From positions 1 to 43,767 of the IMG/VR virus record IMGVR_UViG_3300035670_000433: 43,767 nt of DNA; one strand, 5' to 3'. This stretch comes from a virus. Positions 13,729 through 28,447 of this stretch are shown piece by piece. Made by a program: the position numbers and the translations under genes. The stretch's first letter is position 1, and every line of letters begins with the position of its first letter. The notes beneath the pieces are model-generated. The model ran no database searches, was not told the origin of the DNA, and was given only the letters and a program-made list of their open reading frames with translations.

Positions 13729-15418
<1,690 letters not shown>

Positions 15419-17543: not shown

Positions 17544-17658
17544 ATTTATTCCGAGCAATTATCTCACCCAATTCAAGAATCTTATCTTGTAAAGCCTGAG
17601 CAAGGTCAAATATTTCTTCAAATTTCTTTGTTGTTTCGTTTAGTTCTTTATCGGTCAT
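17542..17658 (-). CDS. Small helical protein (38 aa)
   Basis: This 38-residue frame (MTDKELNETTKKFEEIFDLA) continues as one amphipathic helix (LQDKILELGEIIARNK) and likely forms a coiled coil. No Shine-Dalgarno site is visible and the stop lies in the terminator stem. It could be a small regulator or a chance frame. Confidence 0.4.
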   Translation of the reverse strand: MTDKELNETTKKFEEIFDLAQALQDKILELGEIIARNK

Positions 17659-18392: not shown

Positions 18393-19160
18393 CTAGTTTA
18401 ATCTTTTACTTATAATATCTACATATTGTTTTTCTTTTTCAATAAGAATAAAATTACGATTTGTATTTTGACAAGCCTTTCCAACAGTTCCACTTCCAGC
18501 AAAACAATCTAACACAATATCCCCCTCATCTGAATATGTTTTTATTAAGTATTCCATAAGACCTACTGGTTTCTGGGTTGGGTGGAGTTTCTCTTTATCT
18601 CTATTAAACTTTATTAAGTTTTTAGGGTATCGTTTTCCATTAGATACAGTTTTAAATCCACCAACATCTTCTCTACCACCTTTTCCACCTCGCACAACAG
18701 CACTATTGCTCTTTTGTTGTCCTGATTTTATGGTATATGGTTTTCCCTCAGTAAATTGTGGGTTATATTTCATTGTAATCCCATTTTTTACAAAACTACT
18801 TGCTCCCCTTGAAAATATACATATATCTTCTGTTATCTTCAATGGTTGAAACTTACTGTTTAGAAAGTTAGTTCCATTATCTTTTTCCCATATCCAGTTG
18901 TATTTGTATTCTTTCAAATTACTTGCAATCAGTAGAGATGTAAATGGTTGTTGTGCTGTTATAACTATTGCACCATCATCTTTTATGATTCTTCTAAAAT
19001 GTTTCCACATTTCTTCAAAGTTTATTTTGCAATCCCAACTTGCAGGTGTAGTTCCATAAGGTGGGTCAATAAGAATTAATTGGATACTTTTATTTGGAAT
19101 ATCTGACATAAATTCTTCATAAGAACCTAACCATATTACATTGTATAAAAATTTGTTCAT
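18393..19160 (-). CDS. DNA methyltransferase (N6-adenine/N4-cytosine type, DPPY)
   Basis: This 255-residue AdoMet-dependent DNA amino-methyltransferase has the catalytic motif IV LILIDPPYGTTPASWD at about 29-44 and the AdoMet-binding motif I VLDCFAGSGTVGKACQ at about 218-233. This order (IV before I) marks the beta-class. A target-recognition stretch of about 110 residues lies between them with HPTQKPVGLMEYLI (motif X region) just before motif I. Length is complete for the family. No cognate restriction enzyme is adjacent, so it probably protects phage DNA against host restriction. Confidence 0.92.
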   Translation of the reverse strand: MNKFLYNVIWLGSYEEFMSDIPNKSIQLILIDPPYGTTPASWDCKINFEEMWKHFRRIIKDDGAIVITAQQPFTSLLIASNLKEYKYNWIWEKDNGTNFLNSKFQPLKITEDICIFSRGASSFVKNGITMKYNPQFTEGKPYTIKSGQQKSNSAVVRGGKGGREDVGGFKTVSNGKRYPKNLIKFNRDKEKLHPTQKPVGLMEYLIKTYSDEGDIVLDCFAGSGTVGKACQNTNRNFILIEKEKQYVDIISKRLN

Positions 19161-19162
19161 AC

Positions 19163-19438
19163 TTATTTCTTTAAAATGTGAATAATGTAATCAAGTGCTC
19201 GTAAATATTCTTCATTAGCAAACATCTGAGGAATAAGTGCGTTGAAAGTATAATACTTTTGTTCTTTCTTTATCTCACCAACCACCATATCAACTATCTC
19301 TTGTGCGAGTTGTGGGCTTCTTGTACGGAGGTCCTCTCCATCACACACATAATCATCACATTCATCATCTGCCATATAAACTCTGATTGAATTTTCTCTT
19401 ACCCAATCTACTATCTTTTGTTGTATTTGTTCTTTCAT
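19163..19438 (-). CDS. Hypothetical protein (91 aa)
   Basis: This 91-residue protein (MKEQIQQKIVDWVRENSIRV) has an acidic patch DDECDDYVCDGEDL at about 24-37 with two Cys, then helices (QLAQEIVDMVVGEIKKEQ). It stops 2 bp before the methyltransferase start. Just upstream lies the long structured RNA element, so that element may be the 5' leader of this operon. No family is recognised. Confidence 0.62.
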   Translation of the reverse strand: MKEQIQQKIVDWVRENSIRVYMADDECDDYVCDGEDLRTRSPQLAQEIVDMVVGEIKKEQKYYTFNALIPQMFANEEYLRALDYIIHILKK

Positions 19439-19452
19439 ATGTATTGTTATGT

Positions 19453-19645
19453 GAGAAGTGCCAACAGGGGCACGCAGGTTTTCACTGATATTGTAATCTT
19501 TCGGATATCACTCCAGACTACTCAAATGCGGAATGTTCACTACCCTTGCTTTCTGGTGTTAAATCGCAGAGACCACGTGTTTCTCCACTAACCTACTCGC
19601 TAATCTCATTTTTCACCGCATTACGTGCCCCTGTAGACACTCCTC
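19453..19645 (-). ncRNA. Large structured RNA element closed by an 18-bp split helix
   Basis: The two ends pair over 8 bp (GAGGAGTG / CACTTCTC) and then 10 bp (CAGGGGCACG / CGTGCCCCTG), separated by a small internal loop. Directly inside, AATGCGG pairs with CCGCATT (plus coordinates 19615-19621 and 19525-19531). The enclosed part has further hairpins (GATAT...ATATC near 19490-19512; GGAGA...TCTCT near 19568-19586). On the minus strand unpaired bases are A/G-rich (GAAA, GTGAAAA), as in folded RNAs, and that is also the direction of the flanking genes. It contains no gene. I do not recognise the family; a riboswitch-like leader of the methyltransferase operon or a free ncRNA are the options. 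Confidence 0.75.
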
Positions 19646-19653
19646 GTTAATAA

Positions 19654-19830
19654 TTATTTAATGGATTCTAAAAGAGCTTTTAATGTTTCAATATCTTGTT
19701 TATATATTTTAAATGTATATTCTAATTCCTTTCCGTTTGATGAATATACTTCAAAATGATACTCATTTTTGTTAGTATTCCCGTCTAACACTTCCATATA
19801 ATGCCTCATTATTATTTTGCTTTTGAACAT
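19654..19830 (-). CDS. Small hypothetical protein (58 aa)
   Basis: This 58-residue frame starts MFKSKIIMRHYMEVLDGNTN. It has a beta-prone middle (EYHFEVYSSNGKELEYTFKI) and a C-terminal helix (DIETLKALLESIK). The stop lies 9 bp from the edge of the structured RNA. The pattern resembles small phage beta-hairpin/helix proteins but no family is recognised. Confidence 0.55.
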   Translation of the reverse strand: MFKSKIIMRHYMEVLDGNTNKNEYHFEVYSSNGKELEYTFKIYKQDIETLKALLESIK

Positions 19831-19831
19831 A

Positions 19832-19897
19832 TTATTTATTCTTAATTATTAGTGCGTATAATCCTACTACTATCCATGCGATTGTTATGTACCACAT
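19832..19897 (-). CDS. Possible 21-aa membrane peptide
   Basis: A 21-residue frame, almost entirely one hydrophobic helix (WYITIAWIVVGLYALII) ending KNK. Its ATG follows the stop of the acidic 91-aa gene by 1 bp (TAATATG), and it ends 1 bp before the 58-aa gene. The regular spacing supports translation; the short length keeps confidence low. Confidence 0.42.
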   Translation of the reverse strand: MWYITIAWIVVGLYALIIKNK

Positions 19898-19898
19898 A

Positions 19899-20174
19899 TT
19901 AGTAATCGTAACCTTCTGGGTAACTATCGTCACCTGTTTCTAATTCAATCTCACTATCATCATCCATAAGTGCTTCCATATCTTCGTCTTCATCTTCTTG
20001 TAATTTTGTTTCTCTTTCGAGGATTGCTTTGTTTCTAAGTTGTGCTTCTGCTTCTACTAATTCGTTTTCTTCTCTATATGTTTCTATCATTTTAATTGGT
20101 AAGTTATGTATAAATTTTGCGAGGTTTTCTGATAATGGATTACCTAGAACCGTTGGTTTAATTTTGATGTGCAT
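19899..20174 (-). CDS. Acidic hypothetical protein (91 aa)
   Basis: The N-terminal half (MHIKIKPTVLGNPLSENLAK) is mixed and the C-terminal half is strongly acidic (EDEDEDMEALMDDDSEIELE). Such acidic tails suit DNA mimicry or binding to basic proteins. It overlaps the 43-aa upstream frame by 17 bp. No family is recognised. Confidence 0.6.
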   Translation of the reverse strand: MHIKIKPTVLGNPLSENLAKFIHNLPIKMIETYREENELVEAEAQLRNKAILERETKLQEDEDEDMEALMDDDSEIELETGDDSYPEGYDY

Positions 20175-22618: not shown

Positions 22619-23115
22619 AACCATTCCACCTAAAACAAATTCGCACCTACTTACCTCCTTATTCAAAGGAATTACAGGAGATGCTGAATATCACCAAAGA
22701 GAGGACAGTAGTCTTTGAAACTGGTGTACGAGGTTTTATTTTAGGGAATCATGTACTTGCACCCCACTGTCACAAGGAAGATGCAATCGCAGAAAAAGAT
22801 GGACAAGATATTCCACTTATGTTTGAAAAAACTTGTAAGTATGGAATCTCTCGCTTTCTTCTACCCTATGATATGCCTGTCGAACCTCTGTCATTTAGAC
22901 AAAGGGCAATCCTGAAAGATACATTTCTGTTTAGAGTGTTTAATCAGATTCATCTCTGTTCTAAATTTACAGTTACGACTGGAAAAGGAATATATGGACT
23001 TGATTCACTCGACCAATTCTGTCCCGTGTTTGATAGACACGCACACTTAATTGGTATGAACAGTGGTATCTTTTGTAAGAAACTCATCTGTATACCCGTA
23101 GAACATCTTGTATGA
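22615..23115 (+). CDS. Hypothetical protein (166 aa)
   Basis: This 166-residue soluble protein starts MKPFHLKQIRTYLPPYSKEL and has six Cys and several His (APHCHKED, KTCKYG, HLCSKF, DQFCPVFDRHAH, GIFCKKLICIP) that could bind metal. It starts in an ATGA overlap with the HNH-like gene and ends in one with the 42-aa gene, so it belongs to this plus-strand operon. No family is recognised. Confidence 0.62.
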   Translation: MKPFHLKQIRTYLPPYSKELQEMLNITKERTVVFETGVRGFILGNHVLAPHCHKEDAIAEKDGQDIPLMFEKTCKYGISRFLLPYDMPVEPLSFRQRAILKDTFLFRVFNQIHLCSKFTVTTGKGIYGLDSLDQFCPVFDRHAHLIGMNSGIFCKKLICIPVEHLV

Positions 23116-23682: not shown

Positions 23683-24270
23683 TTATTTAATCTGATTAAA
23701 AATGTACAGACCGACTTCTGGTTCAACACAATTTCTCAATATTTTGTCCTTTCTAATTCCTATTTTGAAACCAGAGATGTCAAATCCTTTTACTTCTTGC
23801 AAGTCACTTTGCTTATCTAAATGGTTTCGACCAGTAAATTTTTTATCTTCTATGTGTTTGTTTGACCAGAATAGGTGTCTTCCAACTTTATTTGCTTTAA
23901 TTAGTGGCTCATACCATGGAATAACATTTTCAACTACCCAATTACCTTTAAAATAACCTTGCAAAAATAATATCTCTTCATATAGTTTCATATCTGGGTA
24001 TACTGCTTTATTTTGTCCCCTTCCAACCGCTGTATGTTTTCGTATTCTTGAATGGCTTGGACAGGGAGGAGAACTCCAAATAAAATCAAACTCTTGATAG
24101 TGGTCTAACAAATATTGATGAGCATCAGCAACAACAACTCTATCATTTGGAAAAAAATGCTTATAAACTTCTGCAATCTTTGGTTCATATTCAACCGCCA
24201 CAACCTCATGCTCATCTCCCCATAGTTTTCTATTACCCCCTATTCCTGCATATAAATTTAATATTTTCAT
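23683..24270 (-). CDS. Short C5-cytosine methyltransferase-like protein
   Basis: This 195-residue protein is recognisable by motif I LNLYAGIGGNRKLW (about 4-17), the acidic end of motif II (VAVEYEP), motif IV WSSPPCPSHSR with the catalytic Cys, and motif VI VVENVIPWYEP with the catalytic-type ENV. The long target-recognition domain and motifs IX-X of full Dcm enzymes (over 300 aa) are missing, as in several phage versions. The leader is a structured element with a tRNA-like T-arm. It probably protects phage DNA; activity without a standard target-recognition domain is uncertain. Confidence 0.82.
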   Translation of the reverse strand: MKILNLYAGIGGNRKLWGDEHEVVAVEYEPKIAEVYKHFFPNDRVVVADAHQYLLDHYQEFDFIWSSPPCPSHSRIRKHTAVGRGQNKAVYPDMKLYEEILFLQGYFKGNWVVENVIPWYEPLIKANKVGRHLFWSNKHIEDKKFTGRNHLDKQSDLQEVKGFDISGFKIGIRKDKILRNCVEPEVGLYIFNQIK

Positions 24271-24284
24271 ATATTTTTTTAATT

Positions 24285-24372
24285 GAAGTGCAGGTGCAGT
24301 GCTAGACCACTTAAACCTACTCGTCAGTTGGGTATTAAAGGAATCGAACCTCCCACACCACATCTGCACTCC
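24285..24372 (-). ncRNA. Structured leader with tRNA-like T-arm in front of methyltransferase gene
   Basis: The ends pair over 8 bp (GGAGTGCA / TGCACTTC). Inside are two hairpins: TGGG-AGG-TTCGATT-CCT...CCCA, whose GGTTCGATTCC equals the T-arm of the tRNA-Gln at 26813, and GGT...AGTG-GTCTAG-CACT...ACC, which looks like a D-arm. The T-arm precedes the D-arm, the reverse of a normal tRNA. The promoter TTGAGA-16-TATAAT (24409-24404, 24387-24382) starts RNA near 24375, and the start codon is 15 nt past the element. A riboswitch-like leader, decayed tRNA or permuted tRNA are all possible. Confidence 0.55.
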
Positions 24373-26430: not shown

Positions 26431-26436
26431 TGTAGT

Positions 26437-26517
26437 GCAAATAACAGGAGTCGAACCTGAAACCCCGAAGGGACTAGTTTCTAAAACTAGCGTGTATACC
26501 AATTCCACCATATTTGC
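26437..26517 (-). tRNA. tRNA-Leu (anticodon UAG)
   Basis: 81 nt. Acceptor GCAAATA/TATTTGC, T8-G9, D-arm, anticodon stem CTAGT/ACTAG with loop TTTAGAA (anticodon TAG), long variable arm with CCC-TTCG-GGG as in class II tRNA-Leu, and T-arm with TTCGACT. The discriminator is A. CCA is not encoded. Confidence 0.9.
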
Positions 26518-26520
26518 AGG

Positions 26521-26591
26521 TGTTCCTTGTAAGAATCGAACTTACATATTCTGGGCTTCAACCAGACGCTTTACCACTAAGCTAAAGGGAC
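26521..26591 (-). tRNA. tRNA-Phe (anticodon GAA)
   Basis: 71 nt. Anticodon stem TCTGG/CCAGA with loop TTGAAGC (GAA), T-arm GTAAG-TTCGATT-CTTAC perfect, T8-A9 present, discriminator A. One C-A mismatch in the acceptor stem (third pair). CCA is not encoded. Confidence 0.85.
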
Positions 26592-26596
26592 ATTTG

Positions 26597-26667
26597 TCAG
26601 AATACTTGGAGTCGAACCAAGGCTACAAGCTCCCAAAGCCTGCATGCTACCGTAACATCTTATTCTG
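26597..26667 (-). tRNA. tRNA-Pro (anticodon UGG)
   Basis: 71 nt. Acceptor CAGAATA/TATTCTG perfect, anticodon stem CAGGC/GCTTG with loop TTTGGGA (TGG, with G37 as in tRNA-Pro), T-arm CTTGG-TTCGACT-CCAAG, discriminator A. Confidence 0.88.
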
Positions 26668-26668
26668 G

Positions 26669-26736
26669 TCGCTTGACTAGGATTCGAACCTAGGACATCT
26701 TGCTTCGAAGGCATGATTGCATCCACTGCCCAAGCG
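26669..26736 (-). tRNA. tRNA-Arg-like (anticodon UCG), shortened
   Basis: About 68 nt, shorter than normal. Acceptor CGCTTGG/TCAAGCG and T-arm CTAGG-TTCGAAT-CCTAG are good. Anticodon loop CTTCGAA gives TCG. The D-arm is reduced (GCA/TGC) and the anticodon stem has an A-A mismatch. It may be a minimal but working tRNA, or decaying. Confidence 0.6.
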
Positions 26737-26739
26737 TGG

Positions 26740-26810
26740 TCGGGAGTACGCTTTCGAGGTCGTACCTTCGTCTTCACAGGACGATATGCTTACAATTACA
26801 CCAACTCCCG
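26740..26810 (-). tRNA. tRNA-His-like (anticodon GUG), unusual T-arm
   Basis: 71 nt. Acceptor CGGGAGT/ACTCCCG and anticodon stem TCGTC/GACGA with loop CTGTGAA (GTG) are perfect. The T-arm does not fold as the normal 5-bp stem and 7-nt TTCRANN loop (GTACG/CGTAC with a 10-nt loop instead). The G-1 typical of tRNA-His is not encoded (A there). Confidence 0.62.
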
Positions 26811-26812
26811 TG

Positions 26813-26883
26813 CTGGGTCTGATGGAATCGAACCACCATTCACAGGTTCAAAACCTGCTGTCCTACCATTAGACGAAGACCCA
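26813..26883 (-). tRNA. tRNA-Gln (anticodon UUG)
   Basis: 71 nt. Acceptor TGGGTCT/AGACCCA with U1-A72 and discriminator G73, as in tRNA-Gln. Anticodon stem GCAGG/CCTGT, loop TTTTGAA (TTG), T-arm with GGTTCGATTCC. It is the first tRNA after rtcB in the direction of transcription. Confidence 0.9.
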
Positions 26884-26956
26884 AGTACCCCCAACTAAGT
26901 TGTACACCTTGTTGGGCATTCCGTTTCAGCATCTTAACGGACAAACTGTTTACTTA
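26884..26956 (-). other. Spacer between rtcB and tRNAs with hairpins
   Basis: Minus strand CCGTT/AACGG and CCCAAC-AAG...CTT-GTTGGG hairpins separate the ligase gene from the tRNA-Gln. They may guide processing of a joint transcript. There is no U-run, so they are not a clear terminator. Confidence 0.4.
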
Positions 26957-28177
26957 TTAATCTTTGTATGGGTCAAAAGTTTCTTCCCCAGCCATACACA
27001 CAATTAATGGAGTAAGAGTATGTAGAATTTGTATGGTTCCTTCATGTAATTTTAACACTTCATCAAGTTTTTTGTAAACTTCTGGGGCTTCGTCTGCTCC
27101 TGCACCTCGTAAAATTACACCGTTAGAGACCATCCTTTCTTTGACCGAATTGAAATCTACTAAACCTTTTGAAACAACAGTCTTCTCTTTGAACATGTAA
27201 GGTGTTCCATCTGGTTTAAATCTTTCAGTCTTTACAAATTTTGTTTTTCCTGTTGCTTGAGTTCTCGACATTATTCTTCCAGCCCCATGAACTGTTGAAT
27301 AAAATGACTCTCTTGATTTTTCTGAATCTATACCTTTAAGTATTACTGATGTTCCTTCCATTGAAGAACCAACAAATCCTCTTTGTCCTGGAAAAGCAGG
27401 TGTTGCACCTTTTCTCACTACCCAATAGTCTTCTCCGTTATGATTTTCTTTCCATGCAAAGTTGTGGTGGTTGTGGACTTCATCAATAATATCTGCACCG
27501 ATTATTTCGGCAACAGTTTTACAAACCCAATCTCTGCCAGCATAAGCATATTTTCCTGCTAAGTGCATTGCTCTTAAGTAATCTTGTCCTTCTTTTGAAT
27601 TTGTGCTGAGTGTATGTGGGGTTTCATCCATAATGTTTACATTGTCTCCAGCCAACTTCATAAAATGAGATGCTATAGTGTGCCCAAGACCTCGAGAACC
27701 AAAGTGTACACCAACCCAAATAAAATCTTCTTCATCTTTAAACACATCTATGTAGTGGTTTCCCGAACCAATAGTTCCAAGTTGTGCTTGTGCTTTTTTC
27801 TTTAGTTCTGGATTTGATAAGAAAAATTCATCTTCCCACGCAGTATCTTCAAACAAAGGGTGCCCAACTTTTACATCATTCTTTTGACCAATACCAAAAG
27901 ATAATGTTTGCCAAATTTTATCAGCAATACTTGGTAGGTAGTCTTTTACTTCTGAATATTTAATATCTAATTTAACAGCCTTGTTTCCACAGGCAATATC
28001 AAAACCAACACCAGCTGGACTTATTTTATCTTTATAAACAGCAACACCTCCAACAGGCATTCCATATCCTTTATGGTTGTCTCCCATTAATGCAATAAAC
28101 TCTGCTTCTTCTAAACAGTTCTTTGCTTGTTCTAAAGCTCCATCTTCGACAGGACCAAATGTGATTACTTTTTTCAT
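26957..28177 (-). CDS. rtcB: RNA ligase RtcB
   Basis: This 406-residue protein, full length for the family, joins 2',3'-cyclic phosphate or 3'-phosphate RNA ends to 5'-OH using GTP and Mn. Recognisable blocks: SPAGVGFDIACGNKAV at about 52-67 (metal-binding Asp and Cys), GSGNHYIDVF near 137, VHFGSRGLGH (metal His) at about 155-164, VHNHHNFAW near 234 (metal His) and HGAGRIMSRTQA at about 295-306, whose His receives GMP. It ends ACMAGEETFDPYKD-like (VCMAGEETF). TTATCCACA, TTGACC-17-TACAAT and a 6-nt gap to the ATG give a leaderless promoter. Downstream are six tRNAs. RtcB probably repairs tRNAs cut by host anticodon nucleases; no archease is seen. Confidence 0.96.
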   Translation of the reverse strand: MKKVITFGPVEDGALEQAKNCLEEAEFIALMGDNHKGYGMPVGGVAVYKDKISPAGVGFDIACGNKAVKLDIKYSEVKDYLPSIADKIWQTLSFGIGQKNDVKVGHPLFEDTAWEDEFFLSNPELKKKAQAQLGTIGSGNHYIDVFKDEEDFIWVGVHFGSRGLGHTIASHFMKLAGDNVNIMDETPHTLSTNSKEGQDYLRAMHLAGKYAYAGRDWVCKTVAEIIGADIIDEVHNHHNFAWKENHNGEDYWVVRKGATPAFPGQRGFVGSSMEGTSVILKGIDSEKSRESFYSTVHGAGRIMSRTQATGKTKFVKTERFKPDGTPYMFKEKTVVSKGLVDFNSVKERMVSNGVILRGAGADEAPEVYKKLDEVLKLHEGTIQILHTLTPLIVCMAGEETFDPYKD

Positions 28178-28183
28178 ATATAT

Positions 28184-28229
28184 ATTGTAAATTAAATATT
28201 TGTATTGGTCAACAGTTATGTGTGGATAA
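28184..28229 (-). promoter_or_regulatory. DnaA-box-like site plus leaderless promoter of rtcB
   Basis: Minus strand TTATCCACA (28229-28221), 8 nt, TTGACC (28212-28207), 17-bp spacer, TACAAT (28189-28184), 6 nt (ATATAT), ATG at 28177. Confidence 0.75.
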
Positions 28230-28376
28230 GTTTTTAAATAAAAGATAAAGAACAGAAGTGGAGTAAGAACGATAAGAATTAAAAGAAAGAAAAGAAAAAG
28301 TCCCCCAGAAAAACCAGCGTCTTCCCCCTATTAAGAAATAGGGAAATGGTATCTCATTTAGGAGACCATTCATTTG

Positions 28377-28447
28377 TTACGAGTATCAGAATCGAACTGA
28401 TGTCTTAGGATTATGAGTCCTGCGTGGTACCATTCCACTAACTCGTA
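28377..28447 (-). tRNA. tRNA with anticodon CAU (Met, or Ile after modification)
   Basis: 71 nt. Acceptor TACGAGT/ACTCGTA, T8-A9, D-arm GTGG/CCAC, anticodon stem CAGGA/TCCTA with loop CTCATAA (CAT), T-arm ATCAG-TTCGATT-CTGAT perfect, discriminator A. The three G-C pairs of initiator tRNA are absent, so it is elongator Met or Ile2 (CAU read as AUA after lysidine). Confidence 0.9.

Follow-up and report, generated by a model that had tools for sequence, protein, structure and literature searches.

A helix with compensating base changes at a phage gene junction: a possible transferable, cis-acting RNA module

Within the 43,767-nt viral DNA analysed here (IMG/VR record IMGVR_UViG_3300035670_000433, positions 1 to 43,767; hereafter the window), the gap between two co-directional minus-strand genes is filled by an element whose two ends pair into a long, slightly irregular helix. 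Compensating base-pair changes in relatives show that this closing helix at the gene junction is real. We tentatively read the element as a cis-acting, intercistronic and transferable RNA module, most likely a site of double-strand (RNase III-type) processing or of insulation, and give this reading a little less than an even chance. The features of the locus are as follows.

19654..19830 (-): upstream 58-aa ORF, with its stop codon 8 nt ahead of the element
19646..19656 (-): conserved 5' flank TAATTATTAAC, identical in L010, L139 and L117
19453..19645 (-): whole element, 193 nt, closed by a helix of 10 bp, a 1x1 mismatch and 13 bp
19622..19645 (-): 5' arm of the closing helix, GAGGAGUGUC-U-ACAGGGGCACGUA, its first 7 nt the same in all four homologs
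19635..19635 (-): mismatched U (1x1, U.U), 11 nt up from the base of the helix and facing its partner at 19463
19477..19621 (-): variable interior, 145 nt, without significant structure of its own (z -0.38)
19453..19476 (-): 3' arm of the closing helix, UGCGUGCCCCUGU-U-GGCACUUCUC, covarying with the 5' arm
19439..19452 (-): conserved 3' flank ACATAACAATACAT, directly abutting the start codon, identical in L010, L139 and L117
19163..19438 (-): downstream 91-aa ORF, with a homolog behind the L010 element (41% identity)
18393..19160 (-): N6/N4 DNA methyltransferase, the next gene of the operon (Pfam PF01555, E value 1.2e-35)

The 58-aa ORF terminates at the TAA within TAATTATTAAC, so that the junction runs from stop codon through 8 nt, the element and 14 nt to the start codon of the 91-aa ORF, which is followed by the PF01555 gene. 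This agrees with an earlier, sequence-only reading that had placed the element between two minus-strand genes ahead of a methyltransferase. That reading had, however, taken the element on the plus strand, which proved wrong. The minus-strand fold has a minimum free energy of -71.0 kcal/mol (z -5.3, with none of 200 shuffles as good; z -5.65 with 500 shuffles), while the plus-strand fold is weaker (z -3.3 with 200 shuffles and -3.36 with 500), i.e., about -5.5 against about -3.3. The element was assigned to the minus strand because of this better z value and the strand of the neighbouring genes. A scan of positions 19300-19950 for a short GC-rich hairpin followed by a T run found no terminator-like site at the element, nor was a sigma-70-like promoter present there; the consensus used was that of sigma-70, and the promoters of the host may differ. 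Shine-Dalgarno sites are rare, being found at 4 of the 44 genes in the window, and a Shine-Dalgarno role for the GAGGAG of the 5' arm was rejected on that ground.

The ends of the element (19453-19474 and 19624-19645) are complementary. With G.U pairs allowed, the minus-strand reading gives 10 bp, the U.U mismatch, and then up to 13 bp, and a scan of the intergenic stretches of eight related phage genomes showed no closing helix more stable than this one. The split 18-bp helix first described for these ends thus stood as far as the pairing is concerned, with 8 + 10 bp on the plus strand, but the minus-strand helix is the stronger one.

Including the window, four true homologs are available (window, L010, L139 and L117), one of which, L117, has no interior; all were located via neighbouring genes or flanking sequence, and the helix was not used. 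L010, a syntenic 17.6-kb contig reached by synteny after terminase and nuclease searches, shares with the window a nuclease (82% identity), a 108-aa protein (92%) and the 91-aa ORF (41%). Its junction has the flanks and stem base of the window element and a different interior. A pattern search with the 3' flank returned 41 hits, among them L139 and L117, and the 5' flank, scanned for independently (67 hits), was again accompanied by the 3' flank only in L010, L139 and L117. Exact identity in all four extends over 18 nt on the 5' side (TAATTATTAAC-GAGGAGT) and 22 nt on the 3' side (CACTTCTC-ACATAACAATACAT). The genes on either side differ among the four homologs, save for the 91-aa ORF common to the window and L010. 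The downstream genes in L139 and L117 are other than those of the window and L010, and the same cassette thus precedes unrelated genes in different phages.

Other searches were less productive. Scans of a collection of genome contigs, by nuclease or by 3' flank, found no relative, and a blastn search among named phages gave no match to the element. The named-phage collection held no close relative of the terminase, the nuclease or a 161-aa protein, while a terminase search over 396 genomes of one phylum gave no hint of the host. Unfiltered scans with the closing helix were unspecific. A terminal-helix pattern with a gap found a single match in the viral contig collection, L002, which is unrelated and GC-rich and was set aside as chance. 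A tie between the element and the methyltransferase was also considered and rejected, given that among the closest methyltransferase relatives an analogous element lies upstream in L003/G001, but none in L004, L006 or L007. The methyltransferase itself (18393-19160) is 78% identical to L003:4007-4765. The two phages otherwise share one weak homolog only, and such identity between dissimilar phages may be taken as a sign of gene transfer.

No gaps are needed to align the 18-nt arms of the window, L010 and L139. The sequence of the helix varies while its pairing is kept, with five pairs changed on both sides and 91.9% of the cells paired, figures that come from a modest number of sequences (four), though from homologs picked independently of the helix. 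None of 500 shuffles matched the observed pairing or covariation score, shifting the partners abolished the signal, and exchanging the 3' arms between homologs lowered the pairing from 50/54 to 40-46. Covariation, which the sequence-only reading had proposed as a test, is therefore present in the closing helix.

The interior behaves differently. Its length is 145 nt in the window and 63 and 53 nt in L010 and L139, whose interiors also differ in sequence from that of the window. At the L117 junction there is only a 17-nt hairpin, GAGGAGTAACACTTCTC, with flanks and stem base kept. When folded on their own, the interiors of five elements (those of the window, L010 and L139 and two of G001) do no better than their shuffles (z -0.49 to +0.64). 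Hairpin-loop pseudoknots show no excess in the window's interior, 62 of 150 shuffles being as good. Pseudoknot potential lay above that of shuffles in L010, G001 (twice) and G002, and not in the others; a conserved pseudoknot was rejected on this weak overall signal (combined p 0.02) and its absence from the window. Since the interior is variable and folds like shuffled sequence, the inner 7-bp helix (AATGCGG/CCGCATT) and the further internal hairpins that had been described lose their support: by our estimate the former is at about chance level for 145 nt, and it has no counterpart in relatives. The idea of one large folded RNA fares no better, the signal being confined to the closing helix, and the label "large structured RNA" is only partly supported. 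To judge from these comparisons, the interior appears to be a tolerant, variable and dispensable filling of the module.

Further junction elements with the same plan were found in a wider set drawn from eight related phage genomes. All 12 listed elements end 3-27 nt ahead of a same-strand start codon, ten of them between co-directional genes and two at divergent genes. Nine could be aligned in one register, and all nine show a 1x1 mismatch at a distance of 11-13 nt from the base. Seven of these mismatches are A.C, that of the window is U.U and that of L013 is A.A, so that A.C mostly occupies the place equivalent to the window's U.U (19635/19463). L139 and the G008 element at 22668 have one additional mispair each. 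Among single-mismatch helices from unrelated loci, A.C was found in 6 of 79; the P values for its enrichment (4.6e-7 and 1.3e-4) are a guide only, the comparison having been made after the pattern was seen. The elements of the wider set were mostly found by their helix, and several genomes were fetched as carriers, so that only mismatch, strand and position count as independent properties. Helices with 18-nt arms and a start codon within 40 nt number 12 in 264 kb of the group and 12 (some of them duplicates) in about 1.7 Mb of other loci, a comparison in which the group genomes were partly selected for carrying elements. One closed-stem element stands at the start of a GC-rich block of small genes (L023:6439-7570, in G001) within an AT-rich genome, and the block ends in a structured stretch and a terminator-like hairpin.

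Outside the recurrent mismatch, almost every irregular pair is a G.U when read on the mRNA strand and would be an A.C on the opposite one, and pairing in RNA rather than in DNA is favoured for this reason. The closing helix is, however, slightly more stable antisense in four elements (L139, G001 44039, G008 22668 and G002 38317), and the strand argument thus lends support to, but does not prove, the suggestion that the pairing acts in mRNA.

Comparison with known RNA classes gave no assignment. In a search of the whole window against Rfam 15, nothing but tRNAs reached the gathering score, and at the element no credible match was seen up to E 10, which bears out the claim that it is a non-coding structured RNA outside known families. 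Neither ARAGORN nor the Rfam models match a tmRNA or tRNA at the element. An intercistronic module that closes 14 nt ahead of a start codon, and whose interior can be dispensed with, is unlike elaborate RNAs such as tmRNA and 6S. The L013 element (L013:1908-2096, minus strand), which lies ahead of a methyltransferase-like gene, holds a T-arm-like hairpin, GGGTTCAACTCCC, and ACCA; the tRNA-like RNA that this brought to mind found no support from ARAGORN or Rfam. An integron attC site was rejected as well, AAC being present at the 5' end but GTT missing at the 3' end. GOLLD and ROOL are likewise phage-encoded RNAs of unknown function, and a tRNA cluster is found in this phage too; unlike them, the element has no Rfam match, is far smaller, has no conserved inner fold and is not adjacent to tRNAs.

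In the mechanism we propose for the polycistronic phage mRNA, a stop codon would be followed after 8 nt by a helix of two turns, interrupted by a mismatch roughly one turn from its base, and the next start codon would come 14 nt beyond the helix. The double-stranded stem would separate the two cistrons at the mRNA level, and a double-strand-specific nuclease, e.g., RNase III, would probably cut it near the mismatch. RNase III requires about two turns of helix. Provided that transcription runs through the junction, as we infer, the downstream message would gain by such a cut a defined 5' end near its start codon, the upstream message would gain a protected 3' end, and expression would be affected. 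The module may be swapped between phages as a unit and set before different genes. Against this reading, a filling of 145 nt is superfluous for an RNase III site, and the mismatch in the window is U.U, not A.C.

Several known systems resemble the proposed module in part. In precursor rRNA, as in the element, a long stem, there cut by RNase III, closes off a large stretch of RNA; in the element, however, that stretch lacks conservation and may be absent. T4-type phages reportedly possess mobile regulatory cassettes (PeSL, said to have been described by Arbiol et al. in 2010), short intergenic stretches with a stem that lie before different genes in related phages. The element is likewise a stem-bearing intergenic cassette ahead of different genes; it differs in having no early promoter-like or terminator-like site and in being joined straight to the start codon. 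In phage T7, RNase III sites lie at early gene junctions, among them R1.1 between genes 1.0 and 1.1, which contains an internal loop and whose cut leaves 13 nt (PMC6121014). Like these sites, the element is an irregular double-stranded stem, here of 23 bp and a single mismatch, where two co-directional phage genes meet in what would be a polycistronic mRNA, and the mismatch lies 11-13 nt from the base in this and the related elements. It departs from R1.1 in having a 1x1 mismatch in place of an asymmetric 4/5-nt internal loop, and from the T7 sites in general in its variable interior of 40-150 nt, as against their short loops.

The main rival to cis processing or insulation is translational control by an uncut leader, in which a protein of phage or host would bind the helix, or the helix would do no more than keep ribosomes arriving from upstream off the start codon, the expression of the accessory gene being set in this way. 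We consider this possible, if rather unlikely. The base of the helix lies within the short distance from a start codon noted above in every listed element, and with so few Shine-Dalgarno sites, structure near the start could weigh more. There is also precedent in genes 32 and 43 of T4, which are regulated by leader structures (PMC3014915). The gene 32 leader pseudoknot is, like the element, a phage mRNA structure 5' of a start codon (PMC3014915), but here no pseudoknot is conserved and the downstream genes are unrelated. The latter fits poorly with autoregulation by the gene product, and the interior has no conserved loop or binding sequence.

A trans-acting small RNA is distinctly improbable. 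The interior would then be a payload freed by processing of the closing stem and changing fast as a decoy or antisense RNA, as the strongly differing interiors between identical flanks, and the loop-strand pseudoknots possible in L010, G001 and G002, might suggest; yet L117 keeps flanks and stem base without any interior, and the interiors give no structural signal beyond the combined pseudoknot p value above, to which the window does not contribute. About as improbable is an inverted repeat acting at the DNA level, with RNA pairing incidental; it might be a segment that inverts, an element resembling a transposon, or a hot spot of recombination for gene exchange. Identical flanks before different genes do suggest exchange at the site, and L117 resembles an empty one. 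Against this, the arms are conserved in pairing and not in sequence, so that the near-perfect, sequence-conserved repeats of invertible segments were not found, wobbles are kept on the mRNA-sense strand, and the interiors have no common sequence. A functionless chance hairpin in the intergenic gap is very improbable, for although the interior is unremarkable and long stems do arise by chance in phage DNA, the covariation, the flanks conserved in four genomes and a z value of about -5.5 all disfavour it.

A bolder extension of the preferred cis-acting module, and a doubtful one, is that of a class of phage RNA modules over several uncultured lineages, in which a two-turn helix with A.C one turn up would release a hypervariable RNA payload and free the downstream start codon. 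If the preferred module holds, it would be a recurring, transferable RNA part at junctions between genes in phages with very few Shine-Dalgarno sites, and could be searched for and tested by its clear signature, made up of the stem base, the A.C mismatch at 11-13 and a tolerant interior. Such a part would reveal how these phages keep the genes of an operon apart or tune them, and how accessory genes, e.g., DNA methyltransferases, are slotted into operons.

Some other features of the window may be recorded. A non-coding stretch (17564-17633) inside a 373-nt intergenic region is 83% identical to L010:2803-2872 and is possibly a second conserved RNA. A second DNA methyltransferase is encoded at 23683-24363 on the minus strand (PHROG 363, E value 3e-15). 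The product of the minus-strand gene at 13729-15198 is a chaperonin of the GroEL/Cpn60 type, and L117 also has chaperonin-like and GroES-like ORFs. An RNA ligase of the RtcB type (26957-28177, minus strand; Pfam E value 1.8e-69) adjoins the tRNA gene cluster at 26435-28447.
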